Positions 3,001 through 19,956 of a stretch of 40,506 bases of DNA are shown piece by piece (positions within the stretch are counted from its first letter, which is position 1; each line of letters begins with the position of its first letter). Origin of the DNA: an uncultured Roseburia sp. Lineage in GTDB: Bacteria; Bacillota; Clostridia; Lachnospirales; Lachnospiraceae. The position numbers and the translations under genes are program-made. The DNA lies in contig CAMUGE010000031.1 of NCBI GenBank assembly GCA_947088345.1, forward strand, positions 1-40,506, in the 5' to 3' direction. The notes beneath the pieces were generated by a model. The model was not told where the DNA came from. It saw nothing but the letters and a program-made list of their open reading frames with translations, and ran no database searches.

Positions 3001-5967
3001 GCCATCTGCACGCATAAATGTCGTGTCTTTTCCATCTTTGTTACCGGTGATGGAAACGGGCTGTACTTTCTCGGTCGAGGTTCCTGCTACAAACTGGGTG
3101 CTCATATCCGCATCCCATTTAATGTTCATGTTGGTTCCCATGCCGATCAGAGTTACATTATTGTTCTTGCAGTCTTTGTTTGTGCTAAGTTCAAGACCTC
3201 TGACATTCGGCAGGTTATCGCCGATCATCAGACGGCCAAAATCCTGTGATCCCGGCACCCCAAAGATTGCACTGTTTGTCTCGGTATCACGGAGCGCCCA
3301 GTCATATGCTGCGCCAGGACCGCCCTCGAAGCACGATGCAATCTCAAGACCTGGTCTGTCAGGATCGATATCCGTGATATGGATACAGTCGCCGTGTCCG
3401 TATTTGAATTCCCCTTTTGACTTTGTGTTGTAAGCTATTCCGGAACTGTAAAGGTACAGATCTTTCTTTGCCATGTCGTAAGATACAATTGCACCGCCGT
3501 TAATGATATCCTGCCGTCCGTCGCCGTCTACATCTGCAACTGCGATATAGTGATCGCCCTGTCCGGCAAGCGTTCCCGTCACCGGATCGACGCCGTCCGC
3601 ACCATGATAATCATTGAACGGATTCTTCATTACGGAAAATCCGGAATCAATCTTACCAACGAGTTTGAGTTTCTTGTTCTCAACGCCGTAAGCAGCCATT
3701 GTTGTTCTGCTGTAGTAACCACGGCCCATCACGCAGGACGGATGCTCGCCATCCAGATAAGCCACCAAAACATTGAAACGATCCACACGGTTGCCCGGCT
3801 CCATAAAGTCAAGCGCATAATCGCACCAGAGCATACCGTCGTCGATACGGTCATAATACCAGTCTTGTGTATCCAGTTCAGCGCCTGTTGAACAGTCAAA
3901 GAGCGAAATATACTCCGGACCTGTAATCACATAACCCTCGAATGTATTCAGGTTGTGTTTTCTCATACGGTACTGATAATGTTTCAGGAAATAATCGGTA
4001 AGAAGCGTCGCTTCCTCTTTCGTATATCCCTTGTCTGTCGCATCCTTATCCAAGGAAGCAATATCATAAGAACCATAATAGCTCTTTACATCCTGCAGGC
4101 GAACAGTCTTTAAGTTAGCCACCGGCGCGCCCTCAGACGGATACTTCACAGCGCCATTCTCATCGTACATCGCAACGTTTACCAGTTTATCGCCTTTCTG
4201 GTATTCCGGAATATATTTCTGGATTTCAGCGATAACCTTGTCATCTTCCATGCTGGATCCGATTGCTTTCAAGTCTACGGATGTATTTTTATCATCTCCA
4301 ATGTAGAATTTTGCATCTCTCCAGCGTGTGTCTACCGTAAACATCTCTACCAGATTATTGCTCCAGCCGCCATCGCATTCGATTACGCTCTTTACAATAT
4401 CTTCCGGATAATTGTCCCATTTCCCCCAGTGCTGGAAATAGTCAATCATATACTCACGGTAATCGGCAGCAGACATCACATAATTGCTTGTATCTGTTGC
4501 GCCGCTTGCTTTTGCTTTCTCTGTGTTGGTCACATACTTTTCTTCTTTTACGGTACCGTCCGCATTGTATGTAATCATTTTGGAGCCCGGAGCTGTTTTT
4601 ACCATCAGCTCTGCCTTGTTGTCTCCGTCGTAGTCAAACACGCCATACTCTGTATAGTGCGCGCCGGAACGGATATTAACGCCAAGGTCAAGTCTCCACA
4701 GAAGCGTTCCGTCCAGTTTATAGCAGTCGATATAAGTCTTTCCGGTATATCCTACCTGTGAAACGTCTTTTGACTGACTCGGATCCCATTTTACAAAATA
4801 CTCGTACTCTCCGTCGCCGTCCACATCGCCTACGGAACAGTCATTGGCAACAAACGTAATCGGATACTTTGTAGCATCCCCCGCATCTCCGCCAAAATCT
4901 GCGTCATTTCCGTAATTGTCGGTTCTGGAGTTAACGCTTGTGATTCTTGTAATTCCGTATGTCTCTGCAATCGTGGTGTCCGCCGGTTTTTTCAACGGGA
5001 TCTCTTTGTACGCCACATTCTTATTATCTTTGTCTTTGACAAATGTGTTGTAAGTAGTACAAGCCTGATCTGTGATTTCATTGCCGTCCTCACCTACCGG
5101 AACCAGCTTATACATGCCATCCGACAACGTTTTATTTCCTTTGTCCAAATAGTCGGTGCTGTCCTCTACCGTGGCAATCTTTTCATCATTGCGGTAAATA
5201 TTAAAGTTCACGCCGGTCAGCCCTGTCTCACTGTGGCCTGTCACCTCATCGGCAAACAGTCTCCAGCTCAAATATACGCCGGCGTCCGTTGCTGTCGCCG
5301 TCATACCGCGGTCAAGCTTTTCCATCTGTGCCGTATACTCCACAGCCGTCGGTGATTTTGCCGTCTCCTTTGACTTTGCGCCGACCCCTTTTCCTGTCAC
5401 CGGCGCAACCTTAAAGTACATATTACGGAATGTGGATTTGTTGACCGTAAATGTAACGGTCGCGCCTGTTCCGGCGCTTGCTGTTGGTACTGTCACCTCC
5501 GCAACCGGCTCTTTGCCCGGCTCTCCGTTATAAGTTGGAATTGTCGTACCCTTGCTGTTCAACTGCAAGAACTCGGTTGTCTTTAAGTTCTTGTCCGCCC
5601 AGTAGACATTGTAACCGGTCAGCGTGTCGCCCTCGTCCGGTACAAATGCATTCCACTGCAGTGTGACGGAATTCTCTGTTACCTTTGTCACTTTAAGGCC
5701 TTCCACAAACCTTACTTCCTGCAGATTGTCAATGGCTGTCGTCATACCTGTGACTGCCGTCTGATAGGCATCTGCATTTTTGAGCGCTTCATCTGCCGCG
5801 TCAAGAGCTTCTGTCAGTTCGTTTTTCCACTGTGTACCCGGTGTTGTTGCGGCAAATATGTCGGTAAGTCCCGCACCACCGAATGTCTCCACAAGCATTG
5901 CAGCCGTAAGGACAGCAGCTCCGACACGACGTGCGCCCGCTTTGCGTTTACCACGTTGTCTGTTCAT
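1..5967 (-). CDS. Secreted rhamnogalacturonan lyase, PL11 family (C-terminus beyond left edge)
   Basis: The frame is open from the ATG at 5967 to base 1 (1989 codons), so the C-terminus is missing. A basic N-terminus and hydrophobic stretch (RRVGAAVLTAAMLVET) form a signal peptide. A fibronectin III-like segment follows (VTENSVTLQW, then GYNVYWADKNL). The PL11 catalytic domain carries DVDGDGEYEYFVKWDPS, GAHYTEFGVFDYDGD, TGPEYISLFDCSTG and GRGYYSRTT, a calcium-binding beta-propeller in known members. After it come two carbohydrate-binding-like modules starting YQFDFN and YAIDFGPE, FIVAR repeats (YTVSSWNAL, FTEESWAAF, YTEDSYNVL), and a Pro/Asn linker (DPNPNPNP) at the very edge. The family cleaves the rhamnose-galacturonate backbone of pectin RG-I outside the cell. 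The ribosome site AAAGGGGG lies about 10 bases before the ATG. It is a paralogue of the next gene on the same strand. Confidence 0.93.
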   Translation of the reverse strand, partial: MNRQRGKRKAGARRVGAAVLTAAMLVETFGGAGLTDIFAATTPGTQWKNELTEALDAADEALKNADAYQTAVTGMTTAIDNLQEVRFVEGLKVTKVTENSVTLQWNAFVPDEGDTLTGYNVYWADKNLKTTEFLQLNSKGTTIPTYNGEPGKEPVAEVTVPTASAGTGATVTFTVNKSTFRNMYFKVAPVTGKGVGAKSKETAKSPTAVEYTAQMEKLDRGMTATATDAGVYLSWRLFADEVTGHSETGLTGVNFNIYRNDEKIATVEDSTDYLDKGNKTLSDGMYKLVPVGEDGNEITDQACTTYNTFVKDKDNKNVAYKEIPLKKPADTTIAETYGITRITSVNSRTDNYGNDADFGGDAGDATKYPITFVANDCSVGDVDGDGEYEYFVKWDPSQSKDVSQVGYTGKTYIDCYKLDGTLLWRLDLGVNIRSGAHYTEYGVFDYDGDNKAELMVKTAPGSKMITYNADGTVKEEKYVTNTEKAKASGATDTSNYVMSAADYREYMIDYFQHWGKWDNYPEDIVKSVIECDGGWSNNLVEMFTVDTRWRDAKFYIGDDKNTSVDLKAIGSSMEDDKVIAEIQKYIPEYQKGDKLVNVAMYDENGAVKYPSEGAPVANLKTVRLQDVKSYYGSYDIASLDKDATDKGYTKEEATLLTDYFLKHYQYRMRKHNLNTFEGYVITGPEYISLFDCSTGAELDTQDWYYDRIDDGMLWCDYALDFMEPGNRVDRFNVLVAYLDGEHPSCVMGRGYYSRTTMAAYGVENKKLKLVGKIDSGFSVMKNPFNDYHGADGVDPVTGTLAGQGDHYIAVADVDGDGRQDIINGGAIVSYDMAKKDLYLYSSGIAYNTKSKGEFKYGHGDCIHITDIDPDRPGLEIASCFEGGPGAAYDWALRDTETNSAIFGVPGSQDFGRLMIGDNLPNVRGLELSTNKDCKNNNVTLIGMGTNMNIKWDADMSTQFVAGTSTEKVQPVSITGNKDGKDTTFMRADGYTTNNWTKGNPCLVADLFGDTREELLVRAYDSSNLRIYMNTEDSVHKNYTLMQNLQYRVGIASQNSAYNQPAYTDYYYAADTDWEYVWLPNAKKEQAPGDVAEAAANVKGNAFADDGVDVDADVKAADVITVEPVSITPDEATSLKPVENYQFDFNNSDDSDSPFKHIVLGKAKNTTTGDAEINAAKAAKAVYTKATGYGFTEDSLKNATQVVKDGWAVQAESSEAYDMALAKAVGNAIRFHDSDSEFLIDLPKGTYQVNVYAAALNETYMKNCEYYINGVKIGKQNPVAGGKVSDYGVAAKVTLTRPGQITIKSTPGGKIIDETTGARDGISFFSAITVNTYVPRIVDAVDEKWQAYKDAEAALRTAMESFEGSNSASDFTEALALAMVAMNNAAKDVRYMKLADPSKDAAVYADAKEKLSTPEYFVTVADLEKAVAAYEAAKENLVITEQIQGVVDVLDLWLDGVTVSPGEGVQIKPYDPTELQALIDEIGEGVTDGGLGTGTLKEDTYTVSSWNALKAAYDAAVAAIADKTLSRQYMTIIYRNLMNAYGDLADIAPVTAYAIDFGPEKDVAEDKSESDPQIATANTLTLETHGFPLNGKLCTLVTGNTLYAENGDDNRSHFGMEKATKAMNTTSGGAYFRDYVYGENGDPYTFKADVAEGYWYVYVYTGDKISNHTTDFYFNDGKPAYNNNEAGVKAASRGAITPQREEDGKTIYTQAGSGGGQYLAANAIYRVYVPATTEGGDKGVFSITCFDASKSANVTARLNGLEMAHMSYAKALEETMNELKACSADDFTAASFAPVAAALEKAQALVGQEEQKKAEVVAVIDELSEIAGNLERKAIKTKLEEKVEEVKDFTPDNFTEESWAAFSEALKKAQDLLKEDADPSQKEVDDALEALKAAVEGLTSNVDKTELEEAYNKAAQIDPTLYTEDSYNVLADAMAAAEEKLADKNITPEEVKEYAKAINDAIAGLVLLNPGEDPNPNPNPGPGGDPNPNP

Positions 5968-6000
5968 TCGTGATATACCCCCTTTTCGATTTTGTTGAAA

Positions 6001-6020
6001 GTTTGAGCCAATTCTCAAAC
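6001..6020 (-). repeat. Perfect inverted repeat in the 5' leader of the first lyase gene
   Basis: GTTTGAG and CTCAAAC form a perfect 7-bp inverted repeat around a 6-base centre, between the proposed promoter and the ribosome site. A second smaller hairpin (CTTTTTC / GAAAAAG) lies just upstream at about 6028-6048. It could be an operator or a leader hairpin; the sequence does not decide. Confidence 0.45.
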
Positions 6021-6059
6021 TATTGTCACTTTTTCTCATGGAAAAAGCTACCTATAGTC

Positions 6060-6407: not shown

Positions 6408-9400
6408 TTATTTAATTTTCAGCGGTTTTAATTTACTTGCATATGCTTTTTTCTTACTCTTCGGTACGGAAGCTTTCGCGCCTTTCTTCACGCTCTTGAA
6501 TGCGTTTTTGCCGACTGTTTTTAACTTGGTGGATTTAATGTTCACCTGGTTCAGTTTTTTACAGTTCCGGAATGCTTCCTTGCCGATCTTTGTCAGACCT
6601 TTACCGATTGTAACTTTGGTCATTTTTGTATTCTTGTAAAATGCCTTGTCGCCGATCTCGGTTACTTTATCCGGAATCGTAAGCGTCTTGATTGCTGCGC
6701 CCTCAAATGCCTGTTTTCCAATCTTTGTCAGATTCTTGCCGAATTTTACAGTGGCAAGCTTCTTACAGCCGCTGAATGCAGCCGTTCCGATTGTCTTAAC
6801 GCTGTTCGGGAACGTTACCGATTTCAGCGCTGTACATTTGCTGAATGCCTTGTTTCCAATCGTTTCAAGTTTGCTGTTAAATTTCACCGTTGATAATTTC
6901 GTAGCGCCGGAGAATGCGTCCGCCTCAATTGTCTTGATATTCGCTCCAAACGTAACCTTTGTAACGCTCTTCTTCTGAGCCTTTGTAAGTGCATTCTTGC
7001 TTACAGAAGTCACCTGATATGTTACGCCGCCAATTGTTACAGTTGCCGGAATCGTTACGCTCTTGCCATTTGCGCCGGTTCCTGTAAACGCTACTTCCGG
7101 CTTTGTTCCGTCATCCATACCCTGTACGGTTACTTTAAATTTGTTTTTCTTGGAATCTGTAAATGTCTTGCCTTTTGCCTCGCCAATCGGTTTTGCAGCT
7201 TTCTTCAATGCATTCACTGCATTTGTCAATTTGGCAAGCGCATCCGATACCTGCGTCTTTGTTGCGCCGGCATTGCCGTATACTGCATTGGCCTCTGCCA
7301 GAGCTGCAGAAACTGCCGCCCAGCTGTCCGCCGTATAATCCGCCGCTGTTAATGCTGCTGCTTTGTCGATTGCTTCCTTTAATGCTGCTTTATCCTGCTC
7401 TGTTGCGATATCGCCCGCCGTACCGCCTGCAGGTACCAATGTTCCAAATGCTGCCGCAAGATTATTCAGTGCTTCGTCCACCTGTGACTGTGTTGCATTC
7501 GGGTTTGCATTCACTGTTTTCGCGTCTCCAAGAACTTTCTGGAACGCTGCCCAGCTGTCCGCTGTGTAGTTTGCCGCTGTCAACGCGTCTGCCTCCGCAA
7601 TTTTAGCTGCCAGAGCTGCTTTGTTGACTAAGGCCAGACTGTTCATCACCTCTGTCAGTTTTGCAAGCGCTCCTTTGAGATCTGCCTCTGCATCGCCTGC
7701 AACATATTTGTCATATACTGCCTGCGCGTCTTCGATTGCTTCCTGCAAAACTGCCCAGCTGTCTGCCGTAACGCCTGCTTCACTGACTGCTTTTGCCTCG
7801 TCCAGTTTTGCTTTCAATGCAACAGCATGAACATTTACAAGATCCTGCTGCGCATCCAAAATTGCATTTTCAATCTTGTCGATCTCTGACTGTGCCAGTT
7901 TGGTTTCGTCTTTCTCTGCAAGGACAGGATCCGCCTTAGCCACTGCATCCATCAATGCCTGATAGCTTTCTTCTGTATAATCGTCTGCATTCAGGCTTTC
8001 CGCCTGTGCTTTCAGCGCTTTTAATACTTCTCTGTCAACAAGGCCGGCATAGGAGAACTCAAGACCAACCAGTCTTGCAGAAACTGCATCTGCTGCAAGG
8101 CCTTCCGTATCATCAAAACATGTCAATGAAAGTGTTCCCTGCTCGCTGCCTGCTGCATTTGGCGCTACATATACTTTGTAGATTGAATCTGTATTGCCGG
8201 CGCCTGCCCCATACTGCCCGCCTGCGGCTGATGTCTGAGTATAAATATACTTGCCATCTAGATCGCCGGTTCCAACTGCTACCGGAGTCGGAGATTTTGC
8301 AGCGTCGTCTCTTCTCCTCGTCTCTTCTCCGTTACCGAAGTAGAATTTTGTCGTGTTATTTGCCTCTTTGCATCCAGTGTAAACATATACATAGTAGACA
8401 CCGGCTTTTACATCTGCCTTAAACGTGTATGGCGCGCCACCCGTTGAATAAACAAAATCCCTGAAATATGCGCCGCCGGCAGCGGTATTTGTTGCGGCAA
8501 CCGCCCTATCAAATCCATAATGATTGCGGTTGTCATCCTGGTTCTCAGCATAGACATCTGTGGCTTTTCCTAAAATCGGAGCAACCGGCAAATCAATGTT
8601 GAGCAGTCCGTTCATAAGACCTGCCGCCGTTACCTGACCCGCGGTCGTACCGTCAATCTCGGTTTCCGGTCCGAAGTCTAACACAAGCTGTGTCAACAGT
8701 TCTGTTTTTTTCAATCCATCGTATGCAGCCGAAAGATCATCATACGCAACGGTTATCTTCTGGATTGATTTATCCGAACTGCTGATTACCTCTTTCGCAG
8801 CTGTCAATGCATCGCTATATGCTTTCCAGGAGGAAATCGTATAATCTGTTTCTTTGAGTTTTGCAGCTTCCACTTCTGCAACCAGGGCGCTCAGTTCTGA
8901 TGTATTGCCCTCGCCCACCGTAACGATATTCGTAACCGGGTCGTACTCTACGCCATCCAGCCAGAATGCCAGAGTTTCAACAAACGCTGTTACCTGCGGC
9001 TGGATATTCAGGTTCTCTTTTGCCGCCACATAGTCTTCCATGGCTTTTTCCAGTTTCGTTATAGTATCTTTAATATATTTGCTGCTGTTTTTCACTGCCG
9101 TCTCTGCCTGTGCATAAACGGCATCATATTCAGAAGTATCTGTCAGCTGCATATATTCTACTGCTTTTGCCGCAGCTTCCGCCTCTTTTAACGCCTTAAC
9201 AAGGTTTCCGTTTCCTGTAAAATCTTTAGCCGGAGTTCCTCCGTCCGCTACTTTTGCGGCTTCTGTGGATACGCCTTCCATTGCGGTTATAAATGTATTC
9301 CATGCCTGTGCATTATGATCCTGTGTCACATGTTTGTACTCATCGACAGTGATCGCATTGAACAGGGCTAGCTTACTGTTCTGTCCAGATAGAACTACCT

Positions 9401-12400
9401 GGCCAGCCCGTTTTAAGACTACACGGGCAGACATACGACAGTCATCAACTGTCTCAGCCGTCTTATACTGATCACCATTGTTCACCTGCACACCGTTAAT
9501 CTTATATACTGCCCCCGGGAAACTACTATTCCCAACATCATCTGTTCCAGCATAAATGTTCACCCTGTATTCCCCTGCTGGAAGATCTAACGCAAACGAC
9601 CATTCACCTGCTCTTGCTGCGTCTCTTACAGCCGTAAACAATGCCGTCTCATATTCACTGTTGCCGTTTGGTGTTACGTTGTTATTGCTGGAATTTGCTA
9701 TATGTTTGTTTTCTGTAATTGGAATACCCGTCAAGAAACCGTAGCCCAACGCCTTATTATATTTTGCATCATCTGTTCCAAGCGCCGGCGATTTAAACGG
9801 CGCCGGTGCACTTCCGTTTTTTGTTCCGAAGTCGAACTGATAATCATCTAACGGAGAAGTTGTCATCCCGTCGACAACCGTTTCTTTGTATGTTGACATT
9901 CCTCCGGAAACCGCATCCGGCTCTCCGTCAGCCTTAACGCCTAACATTTCATCTACGTCGAAAAGCGCGCTGATCTTCTCAGACGCAATCACGCCGCCGT
10001 CTGCAACAGCGCCCGGCGCCTGCTCTTTTGCCTGATTCTGAACTGTTACATATTCCCAATCCGTATCGTATGCATAGTAATAGTCCGTGTATGCCGGCTG
10101 GTTATAAGAAGAGTTCTGGGATGCAATTCCCACACGGTACTGTGTATTGTGCATCAGTGTGTAATTCTTATGTGCCGACACTTCCGTATTCATATAGATA
10201 CGAAGTGAATCGTTTGTCTCATTATGAAGAATTATTTCTTCTCTGGAATCGCCAAACAAATCTGCTACAAGGCATGGATTTCCTTTTGTCGAATTGTTGG
10301 TGCGATATCCCTGTGCCGTTAAGAATGTCTTGCTCTTACCATCTTCATATCCGATAATGGATACGTCGCCATCTGCATTTTTACCTGCGGATGTTATAAA
10401 CTGGGTACTCATATCAGCAGCCCACTTAATGTTCATATTTGTGCTGACGCCTGCAAGAACAGCAAGATTGCCTTTGCAGTCTTTTCCGGTACTAAGTTCC
10501 AGACCTCTGACATCCTTTAAAACATCACCGATAATAATACGTCCAAAATCAGTCTGCCCCGGATTGCCAAAAATCGCCGTATTTGTCTCGGTGTCACGGA
10601 GCGCCCAGTCATAAGCAGCCCACTCGCCGCCTTCAAAGCAGGATACGATCTCAAGTCCCGGTCTGTCAGGATCAATATCCGTAATGTGAATCGCATCGCC
10701 ATGGCCATATTTATAAACTTCATTTTTTACTGTATTCAAGCCTGTTCCGGAACTATATAAGAACAGATCCTTTTTGTCCATATCATAAGATACGATTGCA
10801 CCGCCATTGATGATATCCTGACGTCCGTCGCCGTCTGCATCTGCTACTGCGATATAATGGTCGCCCTGTCCGGAAAGCTTTCCGCTCTCAGGATCACAAC
10901 CGTCAAATCCATGAGGCCCATCGTCAAACGGATTTGTCATCACCGTCCATCCGGAGTCAATCTTTCCTGCAACATCAAGCTTTTTATTAACAACATTGTA
11001 CGCTACCATCGTTGTTCTTGTATAGTAACCGCGTCCCATAATGCAGGAAGGCGTCTCACCGTCAAGATATGCCACTGTTACATTAAAACGGTCGCAGCGA
11101 TTGCCCGGCTCGATATTTTTCATTGCATAATCGCCCCAGAGCATACCATCGTCTTCGCGCGGATAATACCAGTCCTGCGTATCCAGCTCAGAACCTGTTG
11201 AACAGTCAAACAGCGAGATATACTCCGGCCCGGTCAGAATATAACCTTCATATACTCTCAAATCATGTTTGGACATTCTTGTCTGATAATGATCCATGAA
11301 GTAATCCACAAGGATTTTTGCTTCCGCTTCCGTATATCCGACGCCTTTTGCATCTTTGTTGACACTCTGCAGTTCCGGAACGTCGGTCGCATTCCAGAGT
11401 TCAACCAGATTGGTTCCCCAGTGTCCGTCGATCGCATCCTTTACGGTCTGTTTGTTCTCATACATTTCCCACTTGCCCCAGTCCATAAATACCTTCTTAA
11501 GGTATTCACGGTAGTCGGCCGCGGACATCACATAATTGTCGGTGTCTTTTACACCTTTTGCAATGGCTGACTCCGTATTTGTCACATATTTTTCGGACTT
11601 TACGGAACCGTCTTCATTATATGTGATCATTTTGGAGCCAGGAGCTGTCTTAACCATCATCTCCGCCTTACCGTCTTTGTCATAATCGTATACGCCAAAT
11701 TCGGTATAATGTGCGCCGGAACGGATATTTAATCCAAGATCCAGTCTCCAGAGCAGAGTTCCGTCAAGTTTATAACAGTCAATATACGTTTTGCCTGTAT
11801 ATCCCTGCTGAGATACGTCTTTGGAAAGACTCGGGTCCCATTTCACAAAATACTCATATTCCCCATCGCCATCCACATCGCCAACCGACATATCACTGGC
11901 AATATATGTAATCTTTGTCGTTGTATAACCGTCTGTTGCGCTGTTCAGAAGTTTAATATCCTCTGTCTTTACCCCATATACCTCTTCAATTGTGGTATCC
12001 AGTGGTTTCTTCAGCTTGATATCTTTAAAAGCAGCATCTGTCCCTGCCTGAAATACCGTGTAATCCGTACATGCTTCCGCCGCTGCTTCCGCGCCGTTTT
12101 TAACCGGAACCAGCTTATAGCTTACGCCGTCCAGAGACTTTGTGTCTTTGTCAAGATAGTTTGTGCTGTCAGTCACTGTCGCAATCTTTGCATTATCACG
12201 ATACACATTAAAATCCACACCCATAAGGCCAGTCTCGCTAAAGCCTGCTACTTCATCCGCAAACAGTCTCCAGTTTAAATAAACGCCTTCCGCCGTAACG
12301 GTTGCTGTCATACCGCGATCAAGTTTCTCAAGATATGCATCATACTCTACTGCTTTCGGTGATCGAACTGCATCTGACAATGCGCCGACTCCGCTTGTCG

Positions 12401-12947
12401 TCACCGGAGCAACCTTAAAGTAAAGGTTATTGAATGTCGACTTTTTTACTGTAAAGGTTAATGTATCTGCACTGTCAACTGTCGGCTTAACCTCTTTTTC
12501 ATCCGGCTTTACAGTTTTGCCGTCCGGTCCAACCAGCAAAAATTCTGTTGTATCCAGATTCTTATCGGCCCAGTATACATTATACCCTGTCACCTGGAAT
12601 CTGGTATCGGAAGACACCAGCTTATCCCATTCAAGTGTAACGGAATCTGCAGTAACTGACTTAACTTTAAGCCCCGATACTACCGGTGCAAGCTCCAGCC
12701 CTTCATAAGCCGTTACCAATGCTTCTCCTGCCGATATGTACTTGTTTGCAGCATTCATAGCCTCCGAAACATCGCTGACCGCACCTGTCACTTCTTCTTT
12801 CCATGGCTTAATTTCCCTTGCCAAAGCCACAGAAACATTTGTCCCAAGTGTTTCGACTAACATCGCCGCTGCCAGAGCGATTGCGCCGACCCGTCGAGAT
12901 TTCTGTCTGTTCTGGGTCCACTTGTTTGTCCTACGTTGCCTGTTCAT
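6408..12947 (-). CDS. Secreted rhamnogalacturonan lyase, PL11, with FIVAR and BspA-like LRR tail
   Basis: 2179 residues. Signal peptide about 1-43 (basic, then GAIALAAAML, ALA/R). Fibronectin III-like domain about 88-185. PL11 lyase domain about 210-970, with DVDGDGEYEYFVKWDPS near 357, GAHYTEFGVYDYDKDGK near 411 and GRGYYTRTTMVAY further on. Two CBM-like modules begin YQFDFGTKNG and LVLDFGPETE. At least five FIVAR repeats follow (YTEESYQAL, VTADSWAVL, YTADSWAAF). The last 250 or so residues are LRR_5/BspA-type repeats (IGNKAFSKCTALKSVTFP, IGKEAFRNCKKLNQVNI) ending in a Lys-rich tail. The large size and sticky repeats suggest a cell-associated enzyme acting on pectin RG-I. No LPXTG motif or SLH domain is seen. 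The ribosome site AAGGGAGAG supports the ATG at 12947. Confidence 0.95.
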   Translation of the reverse strand: MNRQRRTNKWTQNRQKSRRVGAIALAAAMLVETLGTNVSVALAREIKPWKEEVTGAVSDVSEAMNAANKYISAGEALVTAYEGLELAPVVSGLKVKSVTADSVTLEWDKLVSSDTRFQVTGYNVYWADKNLDTTEFLLVGPDGKTVKPDEKEVKPTVDSADTLTFTVKKSTFNNLYFKVAPVTTSGVGALSDAVRSPKAVEYDAYLEKLDRGMTATVTAEGVYLNWRLFADEVAGFSETGLMGVDFNVYRDNAKIATVTDSTNYLDKDTKSLDGVSYKLVPVKNGAEAAAEACTDYTVFQAGTDAAFKDIKLKKPLDTTIEEVYGVKTEDIKLLNSATDGYTTTKITYIASDMSVGDVDGDGEYEYFVKWDPSLSKDVSQQGYTGKTYIDCYKLDGTLLWRLDLGLNIRSGAHYTEFGVYDYDKDGKAEMMVKTAPGSKMITYNEDGSVKSEKYVTNTESAIAKGVKDTDNYVMSAADYREYLKKVFMDWGKWEMYENKQTVKDAIDGHWGTNLVELWNATDVPELQSVNKDAKGVGYTEAEAKILVDYFMDHYQTRMSKHDLRVYEGYILTGPEYISLFDCSTGSELDTQDWYYPREDDGMLWGDYAMKNIEPGNRCDRFNVTVAYLDGETPSCIMGRGYYTRTTMVAYNVVNKKLDVAGKIDSGWTVMTNPFDDGPHGFDGCDPESGKLSGQGDHYIAVADADGDGRQDIINGGAIVSYDMDKKDLFLYSSGTGLNTVKNEVYKYGHGDAIHITDIDPDRPGLEIVSCFEGGEWAAYDWALRDTETNTAIFGNPGQTDFGRIIIGDVLKDVRGLELSTGKDCKGNLAVLAGVSTNMNIKWAADMSTQFITSAGKNADGDVSIIGYEDGKSKTFLTAQGYRTNNSTKGNPCLVADLFGDSREEIILHNETNDSLRIYMNTEVSAHKNYTLMHNTQYRVGIASQNSSYNQPAYTDYYYAYDTDWEYVTVQNQAKEQAPGAVADGGVIASEKISALFDVDEMLGVKADGEPDAVSGGMSTYKETVVDGMTTSPLDDYQFDFGTKNGSAPAPFKSPALGTDDAKYNKALGYGFLTGIPITENKHIANSSNNNVTPNGNSEYETALFTAVRDAARAGEWSFALDLPAGEYRVNIYAGTDDVGNSSFPGAVYKINGVQVNNGDQYKTAETVDDCRMSARVVLKRAGQVVLSGQNSKLALFNAITVDEYKHVTQDHNAQAWNTFITAMEGVSTEAAKVADGGTPAKDFTGNGNLVKALKEAEAAAKAVEYMQLTDTSEYDAVYAQAETAVKNSSKYIKDTITKLEKAMEDYVAAKENLNIQPQVTAFVETLAFWLDGVEYDPVTNIVTVGEGNTSELSALVAEVEAAKLKETDYTISSWKAYSDALTAAKEVISSSDKSIQKITVAYDDLSAAYDGLKKTELLTQLVLDFGPETEIDGTTAGQVTAAGLMNGLLNIDLPVAPILGKATDVYAENQDDNRNHYGFDRAVAATNTAAGGAYFRDFVYSTGGAPYTFKADVKAGVYYVYVYTGCKEANNTTKFYFGNGEETRRRDDAAKSPTPVAVGTGDLDGKYIYTQTSAAGGQYGAGAGNTDSIYKVYVAPNAAGSEQGTLSLTCFDDTEGLAADAVSARLVGLEFSYAGLVDREVLKALKAQAESLNADDYTEESYQALMDAVAKADPVLAEKDETKLAQSEIDKIENAILDAQQDLVNVHAVALKAKLDEAKAVSEAGVTADSWAVLQEAIEDAQAVYDKYVAGDAEADLKGALAKLTEVMNSLALVNKAALAAKIAEADALTAANYTADSWAAFQKVLGDAKTVNANPNATQSQVDEALNNLAAAFGTLVPAGGTAGDIATEQDKAALKEAIDKAAALTAADYTADSWAAVSAALAEANAVYGNAGATKTQVSDALAKLTNAVNALKKAAKPIGEAKGKTFTDSKKNKFKVTVQGMDDGTKPEVAFTGTGANGKSVTIPATVTIGGVTYQVTSVSKNALTKAQKKSVTKVTFGANIKTIEADAFSGATKLSTVKFNSKLETIGNKAFSKCTALKSVTFPNSVKTIGTAAFSGCKKLATVKFGKNLTKIGKQAFEGAAIKTLTIPDKVTEIGDKAFYKNTKMTKVTIGKGLTKIGKEAFRNCKKLNQVNIKSTKLKTVGKNAFKSVKKGAKASVPKSKKKAYASKLKPLKIK

Positions 12948-14850: not shown

Positions 14851-14878
14851 ATTATAGCATACTTTTTGTATTTGTCGC
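14851..14878 (-). promoter_or_regulatory. Promoter of the Na/Pi cotransporter
   Basis: Minus strand: GCGACA (14873-14878), 16-base spacer, extended -10 TGCTATAAT (TATAAT at 14851-14856). It overlaps the first copy of the 107-bp repeat, whose edge falls inside the -10: copy 2 reads TATAAC here. Confidence 0.6.
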
Positions 14879-14958
14879 TATCTATTTTTCCAAATTATGC
14901 AAGCACGATTGCCAAACATGTCCGCATGTGCTATACTTTTACAAAAGTAATTTCCTAA
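14852..14958. repeat. 107-bp direct repeat, copy 1 (promoter module)
   Basis: Identical at 106 of 107 positions to 16254-16360, offset exactly 1402 bases; the one difference is CACGATTG versus CACAATTG. It holds a minus-strand promoter for the Na/Pi gene and a plus-strand promoter. An internal ACATG/CATGT palindrome lies in the plus-strand spacer. Confidence 0.95.
14909..14937 (+). promoter_or_regulatory. Plus-strand promoter in repeat copy 1
   Basis: TTGCCA (14909-14914), 17-base spacer, extended -10 TGCTATACT (TATACT at 14932-14937). It fires into a gene-free, hairpin-rich stretch (14959-15134). Confidence 0.6.
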
Positions 14959-15084
14959 GCGTTTCCGTTCGGCTCATCACTCGCGCAAAAAGGCAGGAGA
15001 TGCTGGCGGCTTAAAACTGCCGGATCATTCCTGCCTGCGTACAGATATGCTGCATGACGGCCTGTAAGATTGCTCTTTACAGAC
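14959..15084 (+). other. Hairpin-rich gene-free segment, possible small RNA
   Basis: It follows the plus-strand promoter of repeat copy 1. Hairpin 1 (14992-15035) has outer arms GGCAGGA/TCCTGCC and an inner stem CTGGCGG/CTGCCGG with two wobble pairs. Hairpin 2 (15062-15082) has CTGTAA/TTACAG. No plus-strand T-tract terminator follows. I do not recognise a known RNA family. It could instead be leftover leader sequence of a lost gene. Confidence 0.3.
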
Positions 15085-15134
15085 ACAAAAAAGCCAGAAA
15101 GCGTAAAGTGTCCTGCACTTTATACTTTCTGACT
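15085..15134 (-). terminator. Intrinsic terminator downstream of the toxin-antitoxin pair
   Basis: On the minus strand CAGAAAG...TAAAGTG pairs with CACTTTA...CTTTCTG, a stem of about 16 bp with one small internal loop, followed by six T. The 120 bases between here and the toxin stop hold nothing recognisable. Confidence 0.75.
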
Positions 15135-15257
15135 CCGTACAAACTTAAACAGCGTGTGCTTTTCGTTCTGGAACTGCACAAAATTCAATAACAAATTCAT
15201 AATAACACAATATATAGGACAAGCCAATTATAAAATACTAGATATTGTATGCATGCA

Positions 15258-15560
15258 TTAAAACTGGCTGGAAGAGTATCTGATGGTTATAATGATAACC
15301 TGTCGGTGCTTTTCGTCAATACGGTAAATAACCGTATAATTACCAACGAAAAGCTGTCTATATCCCTTGTTGGCATATGCCCCTGTTCTCCTCTCTGGAA
15401 AGCGGCAGGGCATTTCTTCTAAGGAAAGGATTTCTTTTTCGATTTTATCCAACATTCCCAATGCAGTTTCAGGCACCAGTAAAGTCTGGGCAATATAAAC
15501 ATAGATGCCATCCAGATCCCGTAAAGCCCGGCTTGTAAGGGAGACATTGTATTTATCCAA
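15258..15560 (-). CDS. RelE/ParE-type toxin
   Basis: 100 residues. It has the usual ParE/RelE layout: two N-terminal helices (SRALRDLDGIYVYIAQ...PETALGMLDKIEKEILSLEEMP), then a beta-sheet core with FPERR, YRQLFVGNYTVIYRID and a final beta strand RQVIIITIRYSSSQF. ParE members poison gyrase and RelE members cleave mRNA on the ribosome; the sequence does not settle which. The ATG overlaps the antitoxin's 3' end by 8 bases, so the two are translationally coupled. Confidence 0.88.
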   Translation of the reverse strand: MDKYNVSLTSRALRDLDGIYVYIAQTLLVPETALGMLDKIEKEILSLEEMPCRFPERRTGAYANKGYRQLFVGNYTVIYRIDEKHRQVIIITIRYSSSQF

Positions 15561-15816
15561 AATGTTTCCTCCTTAAAGAATCAAATGCGCTTCTGGCATC
15601 ATGGAGTATCCCGTTCCGGGCATATTCGGTTTCTGCTTCTAAGATTGCGGCATCTGTTTCGGCGGTTTCCAGCATGGACTCATACGTTTCCATGCTCATG
15701 ACAACAAGATCGCCATATCCGTTTTTAGTAATGAACACGGGTTCTTTTTTTGCATGACAGATTTCAGAAATCTCATTAGTGTTCCGTAAGTCTGTAATTG
15801 GTCTGATCTGTGGCAT
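15553..15816 (-). CDS. Phd/YefM-type antitoxin
   Basis: 87 residues from the ATG at 15816 (MPQIRPITDLRNTNEISE), chosen because AAAGGAGA sits about 9 bases upstream. An in-frame extension to 15882 would run through the promoter and lacks a ribosome site. The N-terminal half (DLRNTNEISEICHAKKEPVFITKNGYGDLVVMSMETYE) is the classic Phd/YefM DNA-binding fold. The acidic and then basic C-terminus would wrap the toxin. It lies upstream of and overlaps the toxin, the standard order. The pair probably represses its own promoter. Confidence 0.9.
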   Translation of the reverse strand: MPQIRPITDLRNTNEISEICHAKKEPVFITKNGYGDLVVMSMETYESMLETAETDAAILEAETEYARNGILHDARSAFDSLRRKHFG

Positions 15817-15847
15817 CTTCAACGTCTCCTTTCTTATTTTGTATATT

Positions 15848-15876
15848 ATTATAACAGAATTATGTGCAAAATTCAA
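15848..15876 (-). promoter_or_regulatory. Promoter of the toxin-antitoxin operon
   Basis: Minus strand: -35 TTGAAT (15871-15876), 17-base spacer, extended -10 TGTTATAAT (TATAAT at 15848-15853), about 30 bases before the antitoxin ATG. Confidence 0.75.
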
Positions 15877-15882
15877 TTCCAT

Positions 15883-16253
15883 ATTCTGGATGTGAATTTT
15901 TTATGAAGATAGAGTGGAATGGAAAAGAGGAGAAACAGCAGAAGCTGCCTCTCCCCGGTTGTTTCTAAAGCGGGCATTGCCCGTTTCATTTTTGTTTTGC
16001 CGACTTTTCCAGGGCACCAGGCAGGTGCTGTCTTGATAGGGACGGCCTCCGAATCAGTCAACGTGCGGAGGAGAAGTGGCAGCAAAGAAACTGTGAATGA
16101 TCTTTCAGCATTTCGGAGTCCTCTTTCCCTATACTTCTATTATAATGCCAACACAGAAAAAAGCCCAATTCTTTTTCAAAGAATCAGACTTTTTCAGTGC
16201 CCTCGTTTTCAGGCCATGTAGGGGGTTTTGATCATAAAACTGTAAAAGTCGAG
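15883..16253. other. Gene-free stretch between TA operon and repeat copy 2, probable mobile-DNA debris
   Basis: It holds a 100-codon plus-strand frame (15919-16221) without a convincing ribosome site, rich in Arg/Ser and without a domain I recognise. It also has a short hairpin (AAGCGGGCA/TTGCCCGTTT near 15969-15989). I suspect a piece of a mobile element because it sits inside the duplicated bracket, but cannot name the element. Confidence 0.3.
16157..16194. terminator. Bidirectional terminator-like hairpin
   Basis: An A-run, then ATTCTTT/AAAGAAT with a short loop, then CTTTTT: a hairpin with A and T tracts on both sides. It would insulate the cluster downstream. Confidence 0.5.
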
Positions 16254-16360
16254 TTATAGCATACTTTTTGTATTTGTCGCTATCTATTTTTCCAAATTAT
16301 GCAAGCACAATTGCCAAACATGTCCGCATGTGCTATACTTTTACAAAAGTAATTTCCTAA
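16254..16360. repeat. 107-bp direct repeat, copy 2 (promoter of the RiPP cluster)
   Basis: Second copy of 14852-14958 with one mismatch. The plus-strand promoter is intact. The minus-strand -10 is cut at the repeat edge, TATAAC instead of TATAAT. Confidence 0.95.
16311..16339 (+). promoter_or_regulatory. Plus-strand promoter of the thiazole-peptide cluster
   Basis: TTGCCA (16311-16316), 17-base spacer, extended -10 TGCTATACT (TATACT at 16334-16339). The start site near 16346 is about 40 bases before the ATG at 16388. Confidence 0.65.
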
Positions 16361-16387
16361 AACCTGTTTATTAATGAGGAATTAAAA

Positions 16388-16435
16388 ATGAGTAAAAAAA
16401 ATAAAAAATCCGCCGGCGCCCGTCACATGGATTAA
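16388..16435 (+). CDS. 15-codon ORF, likely true N-terminus of the next gene in a different frame
   Basis: ATG with a GAGGA ribosome site 7 bases upstream encodes MSKKNKKSAGARHMD and stops. It contains an A8 run (16394-16401) and then TA6. Removing one base in either run joins MSKK smoothly to the open frame of the next gene, giving NPPAPVTWINTVCGITG and then its membrane segments. I therefore read it as the start of that gene, separated by a frameshift, rather than an independent peptide. Confidence 0.5.
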   Translation: MSKKNKKSAGARHMD

Positions 16436-16469
16436 TACTGTCTGCGGAATAACAGGGATCTCTTTAAAT

Positions 16470-17420
16470 GTGATTCTTAATATTCTTTCCGTAAACAAGA
16501 ATTATATTATAATGATTAGTATTCTTACAGTGATTGCAACGGTAATGATCAGCGTATTTGTTTTCAGGAAACAGGCCTCCAAATCACAGACAGATATGAA
16601 TCATAAAGACAGTGAATTAAAAGAAAAAAACATTTTGATTGAGAAATTAGATCAAACCATAAAAATGCTGGGCATTCAGGTTGATGAATTAAACGATCGA
16701 ATTACTGCCTGCAAAAAAGCGCTGATTGATCATATAAAACTGACGCCGGTAGACCATTATCTGATTGATAAGGATGTATATGATGAATTCAGAACAGATT
16801 TAAAGATTTCGGATTGTGTTCTTGAAGTAGAGTTGGTAAAGACAAAAGAACATCCCGAAAAATACAGTCTTCAATTTCAATGGAAATTAACTGTGATCAA
16901 TTCCGGTTCCAAGCCGGTATGTATGGCAAGATTTATCTATTCCGGAGAAGATAATATTGATTCAAATCTTACGATCAGCACGGAAGGTGTTCAATTTGAA
17001 AAAAACTCCATCCGAACTGACATAAAAGTTCTGGGCGACGACCGCTTTATCGAAATAGATTTTGCCGACGAGCTCATTAGCGGAGATAATGCAGTCATAT
17101 ACATCAATTATACTTTTGAAAAATACGAATTTCAAAGAGAAAACGATTGTATCTGGCTTGTCCCTGATGCATTGGGCTTTGCCGATATGAATCGTTTTTG
17201 CATCCGTTTCTACTGTGACGGTGAAATTGTACATGCAAAAACAAAAGTGGAATTAAAATCATACCGCCTCAAAGGGGAATATCGCCTGGAACGGGAGAGA
17301 ACGATTAAATATCAAAAGCTGGAGCATGATAAATGCGGATACGAAGCAAAAAGCGGGAAACGCGAACAGCTGCATGGTTACGGTTATCTTTTGGAACTTC
17401 ACAACACAAAATCTGACTGA
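16470..17420 (+). CDS. Two-TM protein with coiled coil and beta-rich domain, unknown function, first gene of RiPP cluster
   Basis: 316 residues from a GTG at 16470 that has no good ribosome site. In the same frame the sequence is open back to 16392, so the full protein probably starts at 16388 through a -1 shift. With that extension there are two membrane segments (GITGISLNVILNILSV; YIIMISILTVIATVMISVFVF). A coiled coil follows (SELKEKNILIEKLDQTIKMLGIQVDELNDRI), then a beta-rich soluble domain of about 220 residues. I do not recognise the family. Topology, position and co-direction suggest a role beside the peptide pathway such as immunity or sensing, but that is inference. The AT-rich codon use differs from genes on either side of the island. 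It ends 51 bases before the fusion enzyme. Confidence 0.7.
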   Translation: MILNILSVNKNYIIMISILTVIATVMISVFVFRKQASKSQTDMNHKDSELKEKNILIEKLDQTIKMLGIQVDELNDRITACKKALIDHIKLTPVDHYLIDKDVYDEFRTDLKISDCVLEVELVKTKEHPEKYSLQFQWKLTVINSGSKPVCMARFIYSGEDNIDSNLTISTEGVQFEKNSIRTDIKVLGDDRFIEIDFADELISGDNAVIYINYTFEKYEFQRENDCIWLVPDALGFADMNRFCIRFYCDGEIVHAKTKVELKSYRLKGEYRLERERTIKYQKLEHDKCGYEAKSGKREQLHGYGYLLELHNTKSD

Positions 17421-17471
17421 CAAAAATATGAAAGAAACAACATAATTCAGAAAGGACATTCATAAATTAAA

Positions 17472-19637
17472 ATGAAACAACAATTATTTCCTGTCTATTG
17501 TGCACATATGCTTTCCCAGTCTGAAAGAGAACTTATTTTTCGGACTCCCTCCGGAAAACTCTGCAAATTTAAGTCTGACTTAAAACTGATCCTGGAATTG
17601 CTAAGAAAAAGCAACGGAACTACATCCGCAGAAACAATCGCACATTTGGTATCGAAAGATCTTCACATGTCTGCATCCGACGTTCATGACGCGATAGAAG
17701 GTCTTGTAACCTATGAAATTCTTATGGATTCACGTACACAGTTTTTGAAACTCCATACTTTAACCTGTAATCCCCCAAGATATCCGGCGTTTCTTTCTAT
17801 TTCAGAAATTGAAACGCTGACACAGATACAGCCGGATTATCTCACAAAAGAACCAGCCACTATATATGAAGATACCGACGCGATATCCCCGCCAGTTTTC
17901 GAAGCATTGCGAAAACGTCATTCCTGCAGGAATTTCCAAAATATCCCTGTTGAAATAAATAAATTATTTGCCATATGCAAAGCCTCTTATAGTTTTGATA
18001 TACGCCCAACCGCATCAGCCGGAGCACTTTTTCCCCTGTCTGTATACTTTATAAATAGGATTTCTTCCGGACATTTGCCGGCCGGCTTATATCAGTACGA
18101 CCCAAAAAACAACAGGCTTTTATTGCTAAAATTTAGTTTTTTCCCAGAACAGCTTCAATATGCGCTCAATGATACTGAATGTGTTTTTAACGCCCCCTGT
18201 ATTTTTTTTATATGCGCAGACCTTAGCCGCCACATGAAAAAATATACAAACGCAGGATACCGGTATACCATACTGGAAGCAGGTCAGGCAGTACAGAATA
18301 TGACCATTGCTGCGTCGGAACTGGATCTTGGCGGCGTGGAGTACGGAGGCTTCTGCGACGATTCTATACGACAGCTATTTCAAATGCCGGAACATGAATT
18401 TCCATTGGCATGCTATGCGCTGGGATACGAGGACACAGAAAAAAAACAAGACCAAATTTTCTTGAAAAAAAATCAGGAAAAGCTTATTATAGATGAAGAA
18501 ATGAAAAAAAAAGGATTGCATGTCAAACTTTTTTTATCAAATGATACACAATTTCAACTATCAAACAGGCGAGTTGTCGTATCCGGATTCACAGACGCTC
18601 ACGGCCAGACAGAATTTGGAACCGGTATAGATCCTGTTTATTACAGCGCCTGTTTAAAATCCACTATGGAAACATATGAAAGGTATATCTTAACGTGTCG
18701 TTACTTTGACTTTATAGAACGCGCAGACAGGATGAACAGGGATTTTTATTTGAACCCGGCCGAATATATTCCATATTCAGACACTCAGATTACGCAGAAT
18801 GGATTCACAAAATTTTGCAGCGAAATTCCCATCGAATGGCTGCATGGATTTGACCTAAACGGCAGTCATGTATATGTTCCTGCGGATATGTGCTTTAATA
18901 CTGCCAATGGAAACCAAAAAATGATTCATATAGCCAATACCAGCGGATGCGCAGCCCATTTCGATATAGATGCAGCAAAACAGGCAGCGCTACTTGAATT
19001 AATCGAACGGGATGCACTTATGAAAAGCTGGTTTTATAAGCAGTCCCCATACAAAATAAGAGAACATGATCTTCCGGATGATATCAGAAAGAGATTTCAT
19101 CACTATCGAGAAAATGGTGTTTCGCTGTTTTTACTATCACTTTTTTGCGACTATGCATATGCGGTATTAGTCTGCTCCATAAACGATTTTAATCCGCCTT
19201 ATTTTGTATCCGGTTCCGCCGCTTCATTTTCTTCAGCAGAAGAAGCCGTTAAAAAAGCATTTGACGAATGGGAAGTATCCTTTGTACTGGGCAAATCTGA
19301 TATTATGTTTGAAACCGTAAAGCCAAAAGAAGTAATTTTGCCAAAAGACCACGGCATTCTTTATCGAAACACAAATTGTAACCATCAAATTAATTATTTA
19401 CGTTGCGGACAGGAAATTAGTATTTCAGAAATAAACGTAACCCAACTGAAAGATATCAGTAAACTTTCTCCTGTCTATGTAAAATACAAAACTTTGGTTG
19501 ATGGAATCCATGTAGTGAGAGCATTTTCAAAGGAACTAATTCCCATCAATTTTGGTTTTGGAACTGATTTTTATCATCATCCTAAAATTAATAAACATTT
19601 ATTGAACTATAATGAATTTCCACATTTTTTTTCTTAG
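17472..19637 (+). CDS. SagB-type dehydrogenase / YcaO cyclodehydratase fusion
   Basis: 721 residues. 1-95: small helical, winged-helix-like region. About 135-320: SagB/McbC-type FMN nitroreductase fold with RKRHSCRNF (148-155), PTASAGALFPL (179-189), AGLYQYDP (204-211) and LEAGQAVQNMTIAASELDLGG. About 345-721: YcaO domain with ATP-site motifs STMETYERY (397-405), ELIERDALMKSW (509-520) and EEAVKKAFDEW (590-600). YcaO enzymes use ATP to cyclise Cys/Ser/Thr to azolines and SagB oxidises these to azoles, so one chain could do both steps on the peptide encoded 12 bases downstream. Cyclodehydratases often end in PxPxP after a PHPFP-like tail; this one ends FPHFFS, losing the later prolines. No ThiF/E1-like or Ocin partner is present. 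The ribosome site (AAGGA, 15 bases away) is weak. Confidence 0.93.
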   Translation: MKQQLFPVYCAHMLSQSERELIFRTPSGKLCKFKSDLKLILELLRKSNGTTSAETIAHLVSKDLHMSASDVHDAIEGLVTYEILMDSRTQFLKLHTLTCNPPRYPAFLSISEIETLTQIQPDYLTKEPATIYEDTDAISPPVFEALRKRHSCRNFQNIPVEINKLFAICKASYSFDIRPTASAGALFPLSVYFINRISSGHLPAGLYQYDPKNNRLLLLKFSFFPEQLQYALNDTECVFNAPCIFFICADLSRHMKKYTNAGYRYTILEAGQAVQNMTIAASELDLGGVEYGGFCDDSIRQLFQMPEHEFPLACYALGYEDTEKKQDQIFLKKNQEKLIIDEEMKKKGLHVKLFLSNDTQFQLSNRRVVVSGFTDAHGQTEFGTGIDPVYYSACLKSTMETYERYILTCRYFDFIERADRMNRDFYLNPAEYIPYSDTQITQNGFTKFCSEIPIEWLHGFDLNGSHVYVPADMCFNTANGNQKMIHIANTSGCAAHFDIDAAKQAALLELIERDALMKSWFYKQSPYKIREHDLPDDIRKRFHHYRENGVSLFLLSLFCDYAYAVLVCSINDFNPPYFVSGSAASFSSAEEAVKKAFDEWEVSFVLGKSDIMFETVKPKEVILPKDHGILYRNTNCNHQINYLRCGQEISISEINVTQLKDISKLSPVYVKYKTLVDGIHVVRAFSKELIPINFGFGTDFYHHPKINKHLLNYNEFPHFFS

Positions 19638-19649
19638 GGAGGACGTACT

Positions 19650-19838
19650 ATGAAACAGAAGTTAAAATTTCTGCTTGATGTAGAAATTGTAGATGACAAC
19701 ACAATCTTTGAGCCGCAAAGCAATGAGGATTCAGTCACCTATTCCTATCAGGCTTGCGGCGGCGGCGGCGGATGTGGCGGCGGATGTGGCGGCGGGCGAA
19801 AGTTGCCGAACATAAAATCCGACCAACAGCGATCCTGA
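19650..19838 (+). CDS. Thiazole-peptide (LAP/TOMM) precursor with CGGGGGCGGGCGGG core
   Basis: 62 residues. The leader, about 1-34, is amphipathic and acidic (KLKFLLDVEIVDDNTIF, then QSNEDSVTYSYQ). The core, 36-49, is CGGGGGCGGGCGGG with Cys at 36, 42 and 46, followed by a polar tail, RKLPNIKSDQQRS. Cys embedded in poly-Gly is the pattern of azole peptides such as microcin B17, where Gly before Cys favours heterocyclisation. The ribosome site GGGAGG overlaps the stop of the fusion-enzyme gene, giving tight translational coupling. No double-Gly cleavage site followed by a transporter is seen; cleavage could fall after YSYQA. The run of GGC/GGA codons is a true in-frame coding feature. Function as antimicrobial or signal is not known. 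Confidence 0.88.
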   Translation: MKQKLKFLLDVEIVDDNTIFEPQSNEDSVTYSYQACGGGGGCGGGCGGGRKLPNIKSDQQRS

Positions 19839-19876
19839 ACATTTTGTGTAAATTTACATCTTCCGGAATAATCTCA

Positions 19877-19910
19877 AAGGGGCCCGGCAATCATTCTTTG
19901 CCGGCCCCTT
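19877..19910. terminator. Hairpin terminator between the precursor gene and the convergent symporter
   Basis: AAGGGGC-C-CGGCAA pairs with TTGCCGGCCCCTT, a 13-bp stem with one bulge. There is no good T tract on either strand, so its efficiency is uncertain, but it lies between convergent genes where a terminator is expected. Confidence 0.55.
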
Positions 19911-19956
19911 GTGATACACAGGAAAATTCCTGTTCTTTTCTATGTCATTCTGTTTC

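Follow-up and report, generated by a model that had tools for sequence, protein, structure and literature searches.

A putative thiazole-peptide locus encoding a SagB-YcaO fusion protein in an uncultured Roseburia sp.

The locus and its genomic setting

The window, which is the whole stretch of DNA analysed (40,506 nucleotides, contig CAMUGE010000031.1 of an uncultured Roseburia sp.), contains a forward-strand gene for a 721-residue protein, in which a SagB-type nitroreductase domain is joined to a YcaO domain, followed by a short gene for a Cys/Gly-rich peptide. Both lie within a region with a G+C content of 39.1%, compared with 45.5 and 46.3% in the flanks, together with a toxin-antitoxin pair on the opposite strand and an orphan gene in the same direction as the fusion. 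The features are listed in Table 1.

Table 1. Features of the putative thiazole-peptide locus; positions are those of the window.
Feature	Position	Strand	Basis
Putatively inserted island, ~5.05 kb	about 14898..19944		flanks nearly joined in G032; low GC
ParE-type toxin (15258-15560) and Phd/YefM antitoxin (15553-15882)	15258..15882	-	Pfam; inside island
Second copy of 107-nt direct repeat	16254..16360	+	first copy 14852-14958; promoter-like site inside
Orphan protein, 316 aa, with one hydrophobic segment ahead of a soluble region	16470..17420	+	hydropathy; co-directional with fusion
Fused enzyme, 721 aa: RRE-like region, SagB oxidase, YcaO cyclodehydratase (predicted)	17472..19637	+	uninterrupted ORF; Pfam/NCBIfam domains
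RRE-like winged-helix region, fusion residues 16-84 (tentative)	17517..17723	+	hhalign against PqqD-like set
SagB-type FMN oxidase domain, residues 146-319	17907..18428	+	Pfam, NCBIfam; residues invariant in both fusions
YcaO domain, residues 394-721	18651..19634	+	Pfam stretch 394-599; residue alignment with E. coli YcaO
Putative precursor peptide, 62 aa	19650..19838	+	ORF 12 nt after fusion stop; ribosome-binding site
Putative leader, residues 1-35, FxxxB motif F7-LLD-V11	19650..19754	+	sequence inspection
Putative core CGGGGGCGGGCGGG (Cys 36, 42, 46)	19755..19796	+	translation
Stable hairpin (19871-19915), then small terminator-like hairpin (19918-19933)	19871..19933	+	folding; between convergent genes

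In a genome of the same genus (G032), of which the corresponding flanks are 87-90% identical to those of the window, the two flanks are only 105 nt apart (14897 and 19945) or, in another alignment, 81 nt (14897 and 19926), the right edge being approximate, and the 5-kb island is absent. This one relative cannot by itself tell insertion from deletion; against that ambiguity stand the low G+C content of the island and the absence of the fusion from the 35 other genomes of the genus, and a horizontally acquired insertion is considered the best explanation. The same comparison assigned a Na/Pi transporter, an MFS symporter and a beta-galactosidase to the shared chromosome. The MFS symporter and LacZ were rejected as parts of the cluster, since the flank in which they lie is also present at the empty site; a papain-like protease was set aside too, being located 14 kb away. 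Large minus-strand ORFs were also present at 1-6039 and 6408-12947, the latter (2179 aa) with sub-cut-off matches to surface-protein families.

The ParE/Phd pair is flanked by the two copies of the 107-nt direct repeat, which are 99% identical and 1402 nt apart. The first 46 nt of the repeat belong to the native sequence at the empty site of G032, and the arrangement suggests a nested duplication or insertion. Both copies carry the same extended -10 promoter-like site, the second one (16311-16339) upstream of the operon; this site is a consensus match only, and 20 such sites were counted in the region where 14.9 (sd 3.7) were expected from shuffles. Window positions 16108-16204 have an 87% copy elsewhere in the same genome (contig C45:22273-22368). 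At the other end of the locus, the segment 19855-19935 was predicted to fold with -32.6 kcal/mol (z -5.6), while the terminator listing gives the hairpin at 19918-19933 only. The sequence-only reading had delimited the locus as 16254-19910, a span that proved apt, with 16254 the first base of the repeat copy and 19910 within the larger hairpin. The insertion, with its toxin-antitoxin pair and co-directional orphan gene, goes beyond that reading.

For the orphan protein no family above the curated cut-off was found (sub-cut-off E 0.04-1.6 only), nor a PADLOC match, and no homologue was detected in 59 other genomes or in any plasmid record. It may represent a candidate immunity or accessory factor. 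Its ORF has no in-frame ATG at the apparent start, the long frame being open from 16392. At 16388, where the sequence is rich in poly-A, there is an ATG that is out of frame with the 316-aa ORF, which could be due to slippage, an error or decay.

A Pfam scan was performed on 11 ORFs of at least 62 aa in the island and at its edges, smaller ORFs and some antisense ORFs being outside this set. No E1, Ocin-ThiF, exporter, protease or integrase domain was found among these 11, TfuA was likewise not seen in the scanned ORFs of the island, and none of the ORFs scanned is a recognised immunity gene; the earlier observation that no exporter or protease is nearby holds for this set. An E1-like C protein or a CD fusion was likewise not found among the 11 ORFs and the other large ORFs of the window that were scanned.

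The fused enzyme and the adjacent peptide

The proposed order of a SagB-type nitroreductase followed by YcaO on one 721-residue chain was borne out by the open reading frame and by two domain databases. In Pfam, residues 146-319 matched Nitroreductase with E 7.4e-16 and residues 394-599 matched YcaO with E 1.8e-28, each match exceeding the curated cut-off, and the NCBIfam SagB model TIGR03605 scored 99.8 bits (cut-off 78.4). The SagD model TIGR03604 reached 94.5 bits against a cut-off of 219.25, which leaves the protein outside the SagD subfamily as defined by that model. In an alignment that comprised the YcaO domains of the two fusions (from the window and from the Rothia locus described below), the YcaO of E. 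coli and three further YcaO proteins, residues E400, E403, R404, E509, E512, R513 and E599 of the fusion corresponded to E75, E78, R79, E199, E202, R203 and E290 of E. coli YcaO, which we take to be ATP/Mg ligands. All seven are kept in both fusions, and the protein can be regarded as a YcaO cyclodehydratase of the kind expected in a LAP/TOMM locus.

In the oxidase domain, R149, S151, R153 and Y258 align with Arg145, Ser147, Arg149 and Tyr260 of BmdC (a two-residue numbering offset was inferred), and R149, S151, R153, K257 and Y258 are invariant between the two fusions. The three BmdC residues Arg145, Ser147 and Arg149 contact FMN and Tyr260 is located in the active site (PMC8795117). With TIGR03605 above its cut-off and the FMN Arg/Ser residues and active-site Tyr present, the domain has the features of a SagB-type peptide dehydrogenase. 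Both domains and the checked active-site residues being present, cyclodehydration and oxidation can plausibly be placed on one chain, as had been suggested from the sequence alone.

A winged-helix-like region at the N-terminus had also been suggested, and profile comparison agrees with it. The first 100 columns were compared by hhalign with 14 PqqD-like proteins, chosen by eye among 26 candidate ORFs, and scored 31.2 over residues 16-84 (P 4.1e-5, probability 70%); none of 200 column shuffles reached this value (best shuffle 18.8), and the reversed profile gave 9.7. A TrmB-type winged-helix control of 18 rows, including one in the wrong frame (L112), scored 25.4 over residues 34-85, with 18.2 for the best of 200 shuffles. 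Since both scores exceed their shuffles and the PqqD-like score is the higher, the region appears winged-helix-like, PqqD-like proteins being the better of the two sets tested. The PqqD-like match takes in the stretch before the helices, which the TrmB match does not. The evidence that the N-terminal ~90 residues are somewhat nearer to PqqD-like RREs than to TrmB is suggestive only. With the N-terminus alone as query, no RRE family was found above the cut-off and nothing significant was returned; the N-terminus of the Rothia fusion matched PqqD at E 0.13, below the cut-off and level with TrmB.

Other SagB-type oxidases, namely ThcOx and BmdC, have N-terminal peptide-clamp or RRE-like domains (PMC5108345, PMC8795117). 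The fusion matched ThcOx over residues 13-287 (chain 154-431, E 1.8e-4), extending in another search to about residues 14-318, and a profile of the two fusions matched over positions 14-303 (E 2.5e-10). The second clamp domain of ThcOx comprises 87-194 and was thought inactive by its authors (PMC5108345); because the match starts late in this domain, it lends weak support to an RRE in the fusion. The N-terminal region is considered a probable but unproven RRE. Outside the window, the same genome has four PqqD-like matches (contigs C10, C17 and C27), three of them above the Pfam cut-off and pointing to other RiPP loci.

The peptide, MKQKLKFLLDVEIVDDNTIFEPQSNEDSVTYSYQA-CGGGGGCGGGCGGG-RKLPNIKSDQQRS, was found where the sequence-only reading had placed it, 12 bases 3' of the fusion, and its ORF is preceded by AGGGAGG, a strong ribosome-binding site. 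As a short nearby ORF with a leader and a Cys-bearing core it resembles a LAP/TOMM precursor, and the same is seen again in Rothia. FXXXB and FXXXXB leader motifs have been described for other TOMMs (PMC10634744); the F-x3-V of the window leader and the F-x4-L of both Rothia leaders are compatible with these. The likeness between the window leader and the Rothia leaders is not significant (287 and 87 of 2,000 shuffles reached the observed values), and the window leader is about equally like that of a LAP candidate in another genome (G481; 140 of 2,000 shuffles).

The occurrence of such a core next to the fusion does not look accidental. In all, 16 sequences (245,369 bases) were filtered for ORFs of 25-120 aa with at least three Cys and at least six Gly in 12-19 residues of which at least 90% are C, G, S, N, T or A. 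Only two of 2,112 ORFs passed, each adjoining one of the two fusions; the filter was chosen after the peptides were known, and the sample was not random DNA but consisted of the window and the Rothia region, an E. coli region and 13 further SagB/YcaO regions. The peptide had no match among the plasmid records with the low-complexity filter on. A reading of the peptide as a metallothionein was rejected, the match to Metallothio_2 (E 0.04) being below the cut-off and of a kind that Cys/Gly composition alone could give.

A second fusion in Rothia nasimurium

A tblastn search of 72,556 plasmid records with the fusion gave 33 matching records, of which one covered at least 80% of the query: NZ_CP056081.1 of the actinomycete Rothia nasimurium. 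The Rothia fusion, plasmid-borne and annotated as a YcaO-like family protein, is colinear with that of the window and aligns with it over the full length (identity 27%, or 24.3% as given by tblastn). Upstream of it, on the same strand, are a 48-aa ORF with CGNGGSSCNGGGGGGC and an ORF of 44 aa (38 aa from an internal ATG) with CTSCC; these two precursor-like ORFs share the leader LTTLSVxVR (0 of 2,000 shuffles) and have different cores. No E1, Ocin-ThiF, exporter or protease is annotated in the 26 kb around the Rothia fusion, and none was found on scanning 11 hypothetical or TPR proteins near it. The two loci share the colinear fusion and the adjacent Cys/Gly peptide, while the Rothia locus differs in having two precursor-like ORFs, upstream of the fusion, on a plasmid. 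The pairing of fusion and peptide is thus found in another genus, and probably in another phylum. The genome of the window is not one of the 35 genomes of Rothia's genus, and its LacZ is about 38% identical to the ten best plasmid hits listed, all of them from Enterococcus. The predicted co-occurrence with a Cys/Gly peptide was seen for the only other fusion found, and a homologue without such a peptide was not encountered, one homologue being available for this comparison.

Among relatives, no hit spanning both domains was obtained in 59 other genomes, 15 of which matched one domain; within the genus, the fusion was present in one of 36 genomes and in none of the 35 others. Searches at E cut-offs from 1e-15 to 1e-25, in genome sets that overlap, gave no both-domain hit in the order (0/391), the phylum (0/298, where 31 matched a single domain, or matched SagB and YcaO separately, as G481 did), Rothia's order (0/346), Rothia's genus (0/34) or the family (0/396). 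The fusion was not found in the viral contigs and phages searched either. In the samples searched, the fusions of the window and of Rothia were the only ones found.

Quick trees placed the two fusions as sisters, with support 0.235 for SagB (30 tips) and 0.982 for YcaO (8 tips, of which two come from a single gene), a placement that is consistent with one fusion event, though not firmly. Separate, adjacent SagB and YcaO genes occur in two genomes of Rothia's order. In that order, near-alike Cys-rich ORFs of 111 and 121 aa (L046 3899-4234 and L047 4418-4783) adjoin YcaO and SagB genes, and are possible long-leader precursors. In a further region (L048 6084-9674), a conventional LAP candidate, SagB and YcaO are encoded by discrete genes and accompanied by a precursor-like ORF of 64 aa that contains Cys.

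Relation to known systems and proposed function

The core of microcin B17 is reportedly Gly-rich with scattered Cys. The microcin B17 system (McbA, McbB, McbC, McbD) resembles the window in this core and in the use of a YcaO protein and an FMN dehydrogenase for making azoles, and among known LAPs the window core appears most like that of microcin B17, a point not made in the sequence-only reading; unlike microcin B17, it has no Ser. Dedicated genes for export (McbE/F) and immunity (McbG) are said to accompany microcin B17. No E1, ABC-exporter or pentapeptide domain was found in the window ORFs scanned, which sets the locus apart from the microcin B17 family. The cyclised region of microcin B17 is described as Gly-rich (PMC4603692), and its enzymes are separate proteins with the E1-like McbB in a 4:2:2 complex (PMC10634744), whereas the window has a single chain and McbB was not found. 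An Ocin-ThiF F protein with a CD fusion, as in heterocycloanthracin and thiopeptide systems, was not found in the island ORFs scanned.

Partial likenesses exist to several other enzymes. ThcOx and related cyanobactin oxidases, and BmdC, combine a winged-helix region at the N-terminus with a SagB-type FMN oxidase after it, and the fusion matches both in sequence; unlike the fusion they have no YcaO on the chain, and ThcOx has two clamp domains (PMC5108345). TruD, LynD and HcaD (CD fusions) also join YcaO to a second TOMM component, which in their case is the E1-like C protein, the HCA dehydrogenase being separate (PMC4603692, PMC10634744); in the window it is the dehydrogenase that is fused, and a C protein was not found. 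The YcaO/dehydrogenase pair CcaB/CcaC of carnazolamide, a possible precedent, installs azoles on co-expression, the dehydrogenase boosting the YcaO; these are separate genes, with a long NHLP leader and further tailoring enzymes (PMC10676384). An E1-like C protein is usual in LAP/TOMM systems, and is believed absent in those of bottromycin and trifolitoxin (PMC4603692). The TOMM architectures described comprise discrete B, C and D proteins, CD fusions and PatG-dehydrogenase fusions; a dehydrogenase-YcaO chain without a C protein is not among them in the excerpts of PMC4603692 and PMC10634744. No report of a SagB-YcaO fusion was found in the literature searched, in so far as excerpts represent it, and no claim is made that the fusion is unreported.

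The locus is best read as a minimal, horizontally acquired LAP/TOMM locus in which leader binding, cyclodehydration and oxidation are on one chain (probability about 0.7), leader binding being the least certain part. The RRE-like N-terminus would most likely bind the precursor's leader as an edge strand. Judged by family and conserved residues, the YcaO domain would use ATP to convert Cys 36, 42 and 46 to thiazolines, and the SagB domain of the same chain would oxidise these to thiazoles with FMN. The product would be a poly-Gly peptide with up to three thiazoles and a computed mass of 6534.05 Da, 60.08 Da below the 6594.13 Da of the precursor. Self-protection may come from the orphan protein, and leader removal and export may proceed via host functions. 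Given its Gly-rich core, the product might conceivably share the kind of target that microcin B17 has, an idea that is unsupported. The locus is likened firmly to LAP/TOMM systems in the way it would work, and provisionally counted as a member of them. The wider proposal, a self-sufficient RRE-SagB-YcaO azole synthetase that needs no E1/Ocin partner, makes a polythiazole-polyglycine product and forms a mobile two-gene LAP system in distantly related hosts, is tentative, its chances being slightly under even.

Several alternatives were weighed against this single-chain reading. The locus could be a LAP locus in which leader delivery is the task of another protein, an RRE or E1-like one with its gene elsewhere. 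The usual presence of an E1-like partner in most TOMMs counts against the single-chain reading, the RRE-like domain of BmdC is considered a likely relic (PMC8795117), the alignment with ThcOx reaches only the end of the clamp domain, and the genome has PqqD-like matches outside the window. This is nevertheless judged unlikely, as E1 and Ocin-ThiF are missing from the 11 island ORFs and from the annotation and the 11 proteins scanned near the Rothia fusion, and the PqqD-like match, unlike the TrmB match, includes the region before the helices. That the locus is non-functional, left behind from a larger cluster after the loss of partner, exporter and protease genes, is rather improbable. The scanned island ORFs lack exporter, protease and E1 domains, the 316-aa ORF has no ATG in frame where it appears to start and one genome in 36 of the genus carries the fusion, all of which would fit decay; against it, the fusion frame is long and open with its checked catalytic residues kept, the peptide has a strong ribosome-binding site, and the Rothia fusion is likewise found without such genes nearby.

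The two remaining alternatives concern the substrate and the chemistry. It is very improbable that the fusion modifies something else and that the short Cys/Gly peptide serves, for instance, to bind metal or as a structural element: the Metallothio_2 match that would favour this is explicable by composition, while in Rothia a divergent peptide again lies next to the fusion, and the two ORFs there combine a common leader with different cores, as precursors do. Proteins of the YcaO family catalyse several backbone reactions, and the locus might yield thiazolines only or another product such as an amidine or thioamide; with a fused SagB oxidase that fits azole formation, Cys as the only cyclisable residue of the core and no TfuA in the island ORFs scanned, there is very little to be expected of this, the least probable of the readings.

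Provisionally, the fusion locus can be seen as a variant of the LAP/TOMM systems in which dehydrogenase and YcaO are on one chain. In the azole-forming systems described, leader binding, cyclodehydration and oxidation are distributed over several proteins, and their coordination is still being worked out (PMC10634744). If the single-chain reading is true, a chain with all three functions would fix their stoichiometry, would allow the need for an E1-like partner to be tested directly and would make it possible to produce thiazole peptides in E. coli with a small system of two genes. The fusion and its peptide appear to be an unusually compact form of a known antibiotic-making pathway.
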